Positions 33,062 through 40,615 of a stretch of 64,000 bases of DNA are shown here, piece after piece (the stretch's first letter is position 1; each line of letters opens with the position of its first letter). The position numbers and the translations under genes were made by a program. Location: positions 2,542,001 to 2,606,000 of the forward strand of contig NZ_CP058579.1 in the NCBI RefSeq assembly GCF_013402875.1, written 5' to 3'. This DNA is from Halorarum salinum. Its GTDB lineage: Archaea > Halobacteriota > Halobacteria > Halobacteriales > Haloferacaceae. Under the pieces are notes generated by a model. The model searched no databases. It was not told where the DNA came from and was given only the letters and a program-made list of their open reading frames with translations.

Positions 33062-33091
33062 CGTAAACCATTACTCGTAGCTCGGTTTACG
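33062..33091 (+). promoter_or_regulatory. BirA-type biotin operator upstream of bioY
   Basis: A perfect inverted repeat CGTAAACC (33062-33069) and GGTTTACG (33084-33091) is separated by 14 bases and ends eight bases before the bioY start. The half-sites and spacing match the known BirA operator (GTAAACC-N14-16-GGTTTAC), which is documented in bacteria and predicted in some archaea. Biotin-dependent repression of the uptake operon by a BirA with a DNA-binding domain is inferred. Confidence 0.85.
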
Positions 33092-33099
33092 ACACCTCG

Positions 33100-33681
33100 A
33101 TGAGCACGGACACTCGGCAGGTCGACCTCGTCGACGACGCCGTCGTCGGCAACCTCGCCCGCGCGGCGCTGTTCGCGGCGCTCACGGGCGTCTTCGCGTA
33201 CGTCTCGTTCCAGCTCCCGGTCACCTCGGTTCCGTTCACGCTGCAGGTGCTCGGCGTGTTCCTCGCCGGCGCGTTCCTCGGGCCGGCCTGGGGCGCCGGT
33301 TCGATGACGCTGTACCTGCTCGCGGGCGCGGTCGGCGCGCCCGTCTTCGCCTACGGGGCGGCGGGCGTCGGCGTCCTGTTCGGCCAGTGGGGCGGCTACC
33401 TCTGGTCGTACCCGTTCGCTGCGGGAGTCGTCGGCCTCGCGGCGCACGGCACTGGGGACCGACGCGACCCCCGCGAGGTCGGGCTGGCGCGGCTCGTCGG
33501 CGGGATGGCGGCGGCGACGCTCGTCGTCTACACGTTCGGGACGGTCGGATACGCGGTCGTGGGCGACGTCAGTTTCGCGGCGGCCGTCCTCGCGGCGGCG
33601 GTCCCGTTCGTCCCCGCGGAACTCCTGAAGATGGCCGCGGCCGTGGCGGTCGTCAGGAGCGACGCCGTCGTCGCCCGGTAG
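33100..33681 (+). CDS. bioY: BioY biotin transporter, substrate-binding (S) component
   Basis: The 193-residue protein has six membrane helices and matches BioY. The motifs VTSVPFTLQVLGVFLAGAFL, GAGSMTLYLLAGAVGAPVFA and GQWGGYLWSYPFA are characteristic. BioY captures biotin within an energy-coupling factor (ECF) transporter. The next two genes supply the ATPase and T component, so this is a complete dedicated BioMNY-type system. The stop codon abuts the ATG of the ATPase gene. A BirA-type operator lies directly upstream. Confidence 0.93.
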   Translation: MSTDTRQVDLVDDAVVGNLARAALFAALTGVFAYVSFQLPVTSVPFTLQVLGVFLAGAFLGPAWGAGSMTLYLLAGAVGAPVFAYGAAGVGVLFGQWGGYLWSYPFAAGVVGLAAHGTGDRRDPREVGLARLVGGMAAATLVVYTFGTVGYAVVGDVSFAAAVLAAAVPFVPAELLKMAAAVAVVRSDAVVAR

Positions 33682-34389
33682 ATGATCTCGGTCCGGGGGG
33701 TGACCCACGGCTACGGCGACGACGTCGTGCTCGCGGACGTGTCGCTCACCGTCCCCGACGGCGAGTTCCTCGTCCTCGCGGGCGCGAACGGCTCCGGGAA
33801 GACGACGCTCGTCCGGCACTTCAACGGGCTGCTCGCCCCCGACGAGGGGGAGGTGCTCGTCGACGGGACGCCCGTCGCCGACGACCCCGTCGCGGCACGG
33901 ACGGCGGTCGGAATGGTGTTCCAGGAGCCGCGCGACGCGTTCGTCGCGGCGACCGTCGGCGCCGACGTGGCGTTCGGCCCGGAGAACCTGGGGCTCGCCC
34001 GCCCTGAGATCGACGACCGCGTCGGCGACGCGCTGGCAGGCGTGGGGCTGGCGGGTCGGCGGGACGAACGGATCGACCGGCTCTCGGGCGGCGAGCGGGA
34101 GCGGGTCGCGATCGCCGGCGCGCTCGCGATGCGCCCGGGGCACCTCGTCCTCGACGAACCGTTCACGGGACTGGACGAACCGGCGCGTCGTTCCGTGCTC
34201 GCACGGCTCGACGAACTGCACGCGGGAGGGACCGGCGTGATCGTCGTCACCCACGACCTCCGGGACGTGTTCGACCGAGCGGATCGGCTGATCGCCCTCT
34301 CGGACGGGCGAATCGCCGTCGACGGCGCGCCCGCTGCCGTGCGCGAGGAGCTGACCGACCTCCCGATCCGCGTGCCCGGACCCCGCTGA
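33682..34389 (+). CDS. ECF transporter ATP-binding protein (BioM/EcfA-like)
   Basis: This is a 235-residue ABC ATPase. Walker A ANGSGKTT is near residue 35, Q-loop context is GMVFQEPRDAF, signature LSGGE is near residue 134, Walker B LVLDEPFTGLD follows, and the switch His is in VVTHDLRD. It powers biotin uptake with BioY and EcfT. A single ATPase gene means a homodimer here, as in BioMNY. It starts immediately after bioY and overlaps the EcfT gene by one base, so the three form one translationally linked operon. Confidence 0.92.
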   Translation: MISVRGVTHGYGDDVVLADVSLTVPDGEFLVLAGANGSGKTTLVRHFNGLLAPDEGEVLVDGTPVADDPVAARTAVGMVFQEPRDAFVAATVGADVAFGPENLGLARPEIDDRVGDALAGVGLAGRRDERIDRLSGGERERVAIAGALAMRPGHLVLDEPFTGLDEPARRSVLARLDELHAGGTGVIVVTHDLRDVFDRADRLIALSDGRIAVDGAPAAVREELTDLPIRVPGPR

Positions 34390-35096
34390 TGCTCCGGTAC
34401 GCCCCCGGCGACACGCTCGCACACCGGCTCGACCCCCGCACGAAACTCACGGCCCAGGCGGCGTTCGTTACGGTCGCGTTCGCACACACCACCCCCGTCG
34501 GACTGCTCGCCCTGACGGCCGTTGCCCTCGGACTCCTCGCGCTCGCGGGGCTCGGTCCCCGGGTCGCGCTCGGCGAGGTCCGCGGCGTCGTGCCGTTCCT
34601 GCTCGTGGGACCCGTCGTCGAGGCCGCGCGCTTCGGCCCGCCCTGGCTCGTCCCCGCCGACGCCGTCGCGCCGGCGCTGGCGAGCTACCGGACCGTCCTC
34701 CTGCTGCTGCTCGCGGTCGCCTACGTCCGGACGACGCCGGTGCGGGACTCGGAGGCGGCGGTCGCCCGGCTCGTCCCCGGCCGGCCGGGTCGGCTGGCCG
34801 CCATCGGCGTCGGACTCGTCTTCCGGTTCCTGCCGCTGCTGCAGGCGGACGTCGCGAGGGCGCGGACGGCGATGCGCGCGCGCCTCGGGACCGAGCGGCC
34901 CGTCGCGGAGCGGGTCCGCCTCGTCGCGACCGCCGGCCTGGGGCACGCCCTCGGCCGAGCGGACGCGCTCGCGCTCGCGCTCCGGGCGCGGTGCGTCTCC
35001 TGGAACCCGACGCCGCCGCCCCTCGAGTTCGGCCGCGCCGACGCGGCGGGCCTGGCGTTCTCGGCCGGACTGCTCGCCTGGGGGCTGCTCCCGTGA
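34389..35096 (+). CDS. ECF transporter transmembrane coupling protein (BioN/EcfT-like)
   Basis: The 235-residue membrane protein has about five helices and opens with RYAPGDTLAHRLDPRTKL, the typical EcfT beginning. The cytosolic coupling helices with small-residue/Arg motifs are represented by RARTAMRARLG and later ALALRARC. It joins BioY to the ATPase. It is the last gene of the biotin operon. Confidence 0.9.
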   Translation: MLRYAPGDTLAHRLDPRTKLTAQAAFVTVAFAHTTPVGLLALTAVALGLLALAGLGPRVALGEVRGVVPFLLVGPVVEAARFGPPWLVPADAVAPALASYRTVLLLLLAVAYVRTTPVRDSEAAVARLVPGRPGRLAAIGVGLVFRFLPLLQADVARARTAMRARLGTERPVAERVRLVATAGLGHALGRADALALALRARCVSWNPTPPPLEFGRADAAGLAFSAGLLAWGLLP

Positions 35097-38426: not shown

Positions 38427-39092
38427 ATGAGTCAGGAGCACGACACCGAGACGGCGTTCATGGAGGCGACGTACCGGGCCCTCTGCAAGCACGGGTACGC
38501 CGACCTCACCATGCAGGACATCGCCGACGAGACGGACAAGAGCAAGGCCGCCCTCCACTACCACTTCGAGGGCAAGGAGGACCTGCTGTTGCGGTTCCTC
38601 ACGTACCTCCACGAGCAGTTCCGGGAGCGCACCGCCGACCCGGCAGGGGACACCCCGGCCGAACGGCTGGTCGCGCTCGTCCGCACGGTGCTGGAGACGC
38701 CCGCCGACGGCGCCGACCAGCAGTTCAACACGGCGTACATGGAGATCAAGGCCCAGGCGCCGTTCCACGAGGGGTACCGCGAGCAGCTCCGCGCCATCGA
38801 CGAGGGGCTACGCGTGACGGTTCGCGACCTCGTCGCCGACGGCGTCGAGGTCGGCCAGTTCCCCGCGGACGTCGACCCCGACGAGGTCGCTGCGTTCGTG
38901 ACCACCTACGTCCACGGGACGTGGACCCGCTCGGCGGCCGTCGGCGCGGACGTCTCCGCCATGCGCGAGCGGCTGGTGAACTACGTCGACGACCTCCTCG
39001 CCGACGACGTCGCGGTCGCGGTCGACCCCGAGTGCGAGGCGTCCGACCCGGAGCGGGAGACGTCAAGTACGGACCCGGAGGGCTCCGAGTGA
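38427..39092 (+). CDS. TetR/AcrR family transcriptional regulator
   Basis: The protein has 221 residues. Residues of about 8-55 form the TetR helix-turn-helix (AFMEATYRALCKHGYADLTM, then IADETDKSKAALHYHFEGKEDLL in part). The remaining helical domain binds an unknown ligand. The last 35 residues are a charged, probably disordered tail. Its stop overlaps the GTG of the MATE exporter gene (GTGA), and an 18-bp palindrome lies in its promoter. A drug- or metabolite-responsive repressor of the exporter is the natural reading. Confidence 0.92.
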   Translation: MSQEHDTETAFMEATYRALCKHGYADLTMQDIADETDKSKAALHYHFEGKEDLLLRFLTYLHEQFRERTADPAGDTPAERLVALVRTVLETPADGADQQFNTAYMEIKAQAPFHEGYREQLRAIDEGLRVTVRDLVADGVEVGQFPADVDPDEVAAFVTTYVHGTWTRSAAVGADVSAMRERLVNYVDDLLADDVAVAVDPECEASDPERETSSTDPEGSE

Positions 39093-40615
39093 GCCTTCGT
39101 GACGGCCTCTCCTCCGTGTTCAAGGGCCGCGAGGAGTTCGACCTCACCTCCGGCGACATCGGGAAGCCGCTGTTCTACCTCTCGCTGCCCATCGTCATCA
39201 CGAACCTCCTCCAGACGGCCTACAACCTCGCGGACACCTACTGGCTCGGCCGGTACAGCACGGAGGCGCTGGCGGCCATCTCCTTCGCGTTCCCGATGGT
39301 GTTCCTGCTCATCTCGCTCGGGATGGGCGTCTCGGTCGCCGGCAGCGTCCTCGTCGCCCAGCACACGGGCGCCGACGAGGAGCGGGAGGCGGAGTACGCC
39401 GCCTCACAGACCGTCACGTTCGCCGTCCTCGCGTCGATCGTCCTCGGCGGAATCGGCTACTTCCTCGTCGGCGACCTGCTCGCGCTGCTCGGCGCCTCGG
39501 ACGAGGTGCTCCCGCTGGCGACCGACTACATGGAGGTCATCGCACAGGGGATGGTGTTCATGTTCGGCTTCTTCGTGTTCGTCGCGCTCATGCGGGGCTA
39601 CGGGGACACCATCACCCCGATGCTGGTGATGTTCGGGACGGTCGTGCTCAACATCGTCATCGACCCGTTCCTCATCTTCGGATTCGAGAACAACCCCCTG
39701 TTCGGGATGGTCGGCGCGAGGGGTCTCGAGGCGAACCTGCTTGCGGCCACCGGCTACGCCGGGTCGGGCGTGGCGGGGGCGGCGTACGCCACCATCTTCT
39801 CGCGGGCGCTCGCGTTCGTGGTCGGACTCGCCATCATGTTCCGCGGGACGCGGGGGGTCAGGATCCGCCTCCGCGACCTGGCGCCGGACTTCACCTACGC
39901 CCGGCGCATCGTCAGGCTCGGCGTGCCCGCCTCGATCGAGGGGACCGGGCGCTCGCTCTCGGTGAACCTGATGCTCGTCATCGTCGCGCTCTTCCCCACC
40001 ACGGTCGTCGCCGGGTACGGCATCGGCGTCAGGGTGTTCTCGGTCATCTTCCTCCCGGCAATCGCGGTCGCCCGCGGCGTCGAGACGATGACCGGACAGA
40101 ACATCGGCGCCGGGAAGCCGGACCGGGCGGCGGAGGCCGCCCGCCTCGCCGCGAAGGTGATGTTCCTCGTCCTCACCGGCGTCGGGATCGTCACGTGGGT
40201 CGCCGCCGCCCCCATCGCGGCGGTGTTCACCGACGACCCGGCGGTCGTCACGGTCACCGAGGACTTCCTCCGGTGGGTCGCGCCCTCCTTCGGGTTCATC
40301 GGCGTGATGCGGGCCTACACGGGGAGTTTCCGCGGCGCGAGCAAGACGCTCACCGCGGCGGCCATCTCGATCCTCATGCTCGGGTTCATCCGGCTCCCGG
40401 TCGCCTTCGTCGCCGTCCGGCCGCCCGCGTTCCTCCCGGTCCCGTCGTTCGAGGAGCCCGGCATCTGGATGGCCTTCGCCGTCTCGAACACGCTCGGGGC
40501 GCTCATCGCCTACGCCTGGTACCAGCGGGGCACCTGGCGCGGGGGCGATCTCACCGACGAGACGGTCACGGCCGGCGACGACGGCGAGGCGAACGTGACG
40601 CCGGTCGACGACTGA
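39089..40615 (+). CDS. MATE family efflux transporter
   Basis: The 508-residue protein has twelve membrane helices in two homologous halves, as in the NorM/DinF (MatE) family. The first half includes LFYLSLPIVITNLLQTAYNL and the second VPASIEGTGRSLSVN. MATE proteins export cationic compounds using Na+ or H+ gradients. The GTG at 39089 overlaps the TetR stop codon, so translation is coupled. The C-terminus has an acidic tail. Confidence 0.92.
   Translation: MSLRDGLSSVFKGREEFDLTSGDIGKPLFYLSLPIVITNLLQTAYNLADTYWLGRYSTEALAAISFAFPMVFLLISLGMGVSVAGSVLVAQHTGADEEREAEYAASQTVTFAVLASIVLGGIGYFLVGDLLALLGASDEVLPLATDYMEVIAQGMVFMFGFFVFVALMRGYGDTITPMLVMFGTVVLNIVIDPFLIFGFENNPLFGMVGARGLEANLLAATGYAGSGVAGAAYATIFSRALAFVVGLAIMFRGTRGVRIRLRDLAPDFTYARRIVRLGVPASIEGTGRSLSVNLMLVIVALFPTTVVAGYGIGVRVFSVIFLPAIAVARGVETMTGQNIGAGKPDRAAEAARLAAKVMFLVLTGVGIVTWVAAAPIAAVFTDDPAVVTVTEDFLRWVAPSFGFIGVMRAYTGSFRGASKTLTAAAISILMLGFIRLPVAFVAVRPPAFLPVPSFEEPGIWMAFAVSNTLGALIAYAWYQRGTWRGGDLTDETVTAGDDGEANVTPVDD

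Follow-up and report, generated by a model that had tools for sequence, protein, structure and literature searches.

A candidate BirA operator upstream of the biotin uptake operon of Halorarum salinum and its conservation in haloarchaea

Background

According to later papers that cite the work, the BirA regulon and its sites were reportedly predicted in both bacteria and Archaea by Rodionov et al. in 2002. The published consensus of BirA sites is TTGTAAACC-[N14/15]-GGTTTACAA (PMC545781). The sites of delta-proteobacteria are given as TTGTAAACC/TTGTcAACC-[N14]-GGTTTACAA/GGTTgACAA, with GTcAACC-N14-GGTTgAC included, and accepted sites vary at the outer bases, as in acGTcAACC and GGTTgACgA (PMC545781). 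Literature searches found no experimental work on BirA regulation in haloarchaea.

Here we describe a candidate BirA operator in Halorarum salinum. The additions to earlier work are an order-wide map of the site, a test based on the loss of the BirA helix-turn-helix (HTH) domain and a model of promoter overlap. Together, site, HTH and target gene form an order-wide dataset for a bifunctional ligase-repressor on a eukaryote-like transcription apparatus. The window is the whole analysed stretch of 64,000 nucleotides of contig NZ_CP058579.1, and all positions refer to it unless stated otherwise.

Results

The palindrome and the bioY operon

A putative BirA-type operator, CGTAAACC-N14-GGTTTACG, is located at positions 33062-33091, with no strand assigned; the prediction is based on its sequence and on conservation upstream of bioY in related genomes. 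The left half-site CGTAAACC (33062-33069) and the right half-site GGTTTACG (33084-33091) are separated by the spacer attactcgtagctc (33070-33083). In the window sequence the symmetry is exact over 8 bp, and the ninth pair is mismatched. The gap between the palindrome and the bioY start codon (33100) is 8 nt, and thus the exact inverted repeat eight bases before bioY that was claimed in the preliminary description agrees with the sequence in both letters and coordinates. The inverted halves GTAAACC and GGTTTAC of the published sites are present without changes, and the N14 spacing falls within the published N14/15. The outer bases of the 9-bp half-sites are CC...GA instead of TT...AA, a difference at positions that are not essential to a BirA site.

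The downstream genes are indeed a biotin uptake operon, as had been proposed. The first gene, bioY (33100-33681, plus strand), encodes the substrate-binding (S) component of the biotin ECF transporter and is a genuine BioY (PF02632, 122.8 bits). It is directly followed by a bioM-like gene of an ECF-type ATPase (33682-34389, plus strand; ABC_tran, 105 bits; TIGR04520, E=4e-64, which is under the curated cut-off of this model). The gene of the T component is bioN-like, belongs to the CbiQ family and overlaps the ATPase stop codon (34389-35096, plus strand; PF02361, 43.7 bits), so the three genes are packed as one operon. Further downstream in the window (38427-40615, plus strand), an ORF of a TetR-like regulator is directly followed by an ORF of a MATE/DinF-type efflux transporter; these assignments were read by eye from the translations, and the two may be a regulator-pump pair.

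The pattern GTAAACC-N13-16-GGTTTAC has one exact copy in the H. salinum genome (4.26 Mb, 2 contigs), and the reversed control pattern has none. The next-best genomic matches are three, each with 2 mismatches; relaxing the limit to 3 mismatches gives 35 matches per strand, compared to 15 for the control. The two best-looking of the 2-mismatch places are probably due to chance, their neighbourhoods (MCM and glycosyltransferase) having no adjoining biotin genes. A scan of the window at up to 3 mismatches yielded one match, with 0 mismatches, against a mean of 0.38 in shuffled sequences. The bioB gene was not found in the genome, which encodes no BATS-domain protein. Biotin is therefore probably imported by H. 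salinum, and the bioY uptake operon is probably the only BirA target there.

Conservation of the site

The family is represented by 170 genomes, of which 167 encode BioY and 73 carry the exact site; the reversed control is found in one. In all 66 genomes where both coordinates are listed, the site immediately precedes the BioY domain, as judged by comparing the two listings by eye, and the spacer is N14 in every exact site. Most family genomes lacking the exact pattern retain a version with 1-3 mismatches at the same place. Among 109 individually read upstream regions, from genomes with and without the exact site and with the window included, a site with no more than 3 mismatches is present in 105 (N14 in 101, N13 in 4), and in 3 of 109 when each region is shuffled once. 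The left half often reads GTCAACC, and the right half AGTTTAC. The resulting haloarchaeal consensus is TCGTMAACC-N14-GGTTTACGA, with the 9-bp half-site written TCGTAAACC.

At the level of the order, GTMAACC-N14-GGTTKAC was found in 170 of 293 genomes, compared to about 6 for the control, and 37 of 40 order genomes without the strict pattern still have a near-consensus palindrome, mostly at the same position. One contig carries two operator-like palindromes 123 bp apart (G379:C77:7534 and 7657). The 30 order loci that were read have bioY just downstream in 25 cases and bioB in four. The remaining locus, L163 (G271:C1:946391), has a perfect GTCAACC-N14-GGTTGAC and neither gene within 1.5 kb; it may be a chance match or another BirA target.

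The site precedes bioB in five relatives, including the family member G033, where bioY and bioB each have an exact site in front of them. The loci with a BirA-type site directly before bioB are L177-L180 and L129. This suggests that the BirA regulon extends to biotin synthesis in those haloarchaea that have bioB. The preliminary description had proposed looking for the same site before other biotin genes; none was found in the genome of H. salinum, which has no bioB, and the expectation held in the relatives.

BirA and the loss of its HTH domain

A BirA with an N-terminal HTH domain, which the preliminary description had suggested seeking elsewhere in the genome, is present. It is the single BirA-type ligase L001 (C1:2687587-2688552, minus strand), encoded about 82 kb past the end of the window. 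Its domains are HTH_11 (PF08279, 34.3 bits, N-terminal), the catalytic BPL domain (PF03099, 57.3 bits) and BPL_C (PF02237, 49.7 bits), and with this composition it is a group II biotin protein ligase. The alignment to E. coli BirA (1bia) spans query positions 12-311 and covers the HTH region. The ligase-domain model TIGR00121 is the only NCBIfam BirA model above its curated cut-off; the match to TIGR00122 (birA_repr_reg, 'biotin operon repressor') has E=4e-10 and is under the cut-off. The second PF03099 match in the genome is a lipoate-ligase-like protein without HTH.

The HTH domain of BirA has apparently been lost independently in at least three haloarchaeal lineages. Genera g3 (G004, G005) and g23 (G159, G160), as well as G187 from a different family, have BirA frames with catalytic and C-terminal regions and no HTH region; the HTH-less loci are L140, L141, L142, L143, L232 and L236. 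No site was found in the bioY upstream regions of these five genomes. By comparison, the site is present in 142 of 144 genomes with HTH-containing BirA whose bioY upstream region was read; here, the HTH in other family members was judged from the part of the query covered by the protein match and not domain by domain, and it was assumed for order-level genomes without an entry among the matches listed. The two exceptions with no recognisable site before bioY, G176 and G183, are incomplete assemblies (81% and 76% completeness), and the BirA of G183 is divergent (34% identity). A 2x2 Fisher test of site against HTH gives p=4e-8 with phylogeny ignored, the independent evidence being the three HTH-loss lineages with five genomes. 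These lineages are natural cases of site and HTH vanishing together. Genomes without a BirA match belong mainly to genera that also have no BioY (g29, g39, g62, g70), among the BioY-negative genomes listed.

These data bear on the possibility that the palindrome is bound not by BirA, but by a different biotin-responsive regulator, such as a BioR-, BioQ- or TrmB-like HTH protein. Indeed, BioR or BioQ control the same genes in other bacteria (PMC4554459; PMC3398298). However, the half-site is of the BirA type, an HTH-containing BirA is encoded in the genome, and the site is absent in the examined lineages with HTH-less BirA, which makes such a regulator improbable.

Proposed overlap with the promoter

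In Haloferax, 72% of transcripts are leaderless, and the promoter elements proposed for haloarchaea are the TATA box TTWT and the BRE CGAAA (PMC4983044). A putative TATA-like element, ATTACT (33070-33075, plus strand; -30 to -25 relative to the ATG), falls within the operator spacer. It is weak in H. salinum taken alone, and the assignment is based on the AT profiles of 98 relatives together with leaderless transcription in Haloferax. In 83 genomes the distance from the operator end to the ATG is 14-16 nt, and the spacer bases at -30 to -26 are AT-rich, with the consensus TTCAA. In 11 genomes, including H. salinum, this distance is 9-10 nt (counted from GGTTTAC), and the AT-rich region is at -30 to -28. 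Finally, in four genomes with a gap of 18-19 nt, the AT-rich element tracks the operator and not the ATG. Since these long-leader genomes deviate, the claim that the TATA box tracks the ATG is based only on the former two groups.

Thus the TATA box is probably within the spacer and the BRE position under the left half-site, so that a BirA dimer on the operator would keep TBP/TFB off the promoter. We lean slightly towards the general form of this model, in which the BirA operator of haloarchaea spans the core promoter, the TATA box stays near -30 to -25 relative to the ATG despite a 5-nt shift of the operator, and a repressor of the bacterial type, itself a metabolic enzyme, directly excludes TBP/TFB.

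The same position, which is that expected of BRE and TATA for a leaderless transcript, could mean that the palindrome is simply a pair of promoter elements, or else an RNA hairpin, with no repressor involved. This is still less probable than another regulator, as the 7-bp halves at the fixed N14 are nearly invariant, whereas the spacer is variable, the distance between the operator and the ATG differs among clades, and the palindrome is found before bioB as well. A hairpin has the further difficulty that the palindrome would be outside a leaderless mRNA.

Discussion

The palindrome is very likely the operator of BirA, with biotin-dependent binding and repression of bioY by promoter occlusion as the predicted mode of action. 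With abundant biotin, BirA carrying biotinoyl-AMP would dimerise and bind with one HTH per half-site. The bound dimer would cover the TATA box and BRE of the leaderless bioY promoter and thereby switch off biotin uptake. When apo-biotin-acceptor proteins use up biotinoyl-AMP, BirA would leave the operator, and the transporter operon would be expressed. Although the motif is short and versions with 2-3 mismatches arise randomly in the genome, a chance palindrome has a negligible probability and is already refuted by conservation, the sole exact genomic copy adjoining bioY and the site recurring in 73 of 170 genomes against one for the control.

The initial reading of the site as a BirA-type operator is thus supported by the HTH-containing BirA of the genome, by the co-occurrence of site and HTH and by the bioB sites of the relatives. 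Its likeness to bacterial operators in half-site and spacing was stated too generally: it agrees with the published N14/15 consensus (PMC545781), but not with the spacer of E. coli or with the outer base. The bioO operator of E. coli K-12 has the same 7-bp halves GTAAACC and GGTTTAC, separated by N16 instead of N14, and it lies between the divergent synthesis genes bioA and bioB, whereas the site of H. salinum precedes the uptake gene bioY.

The operators of delta-proteobacteria are similar in the core GTMAACC, the N14 spacer, the number of sites (1-2 per genome) and the position before biotin genes. They differ in the outer base of the half-site, which is T in delta-proteobacteria (TTGTAAACC) and C in haloarchaea (TCGTAAACC). 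Moreover, the haloarchaeal site would lie on an archaeal promoter of the TBP/TFB type, and in H. salinum it precedes uptake genes only.

The combination of group II BirA with BirA sites is reportedly shared with the archaeal regulon of Rodionov et al. (2002), as cited in later papers. Since an archaeal BirA regulon was predicted then, the present site, located before a biotin uptake gene, conserved in relatives and found in a genome with HTH-containing BirA, is a well-supported further member of a known regulon. The near-universal presence of the site in the order is an addition to that earlier prediction.
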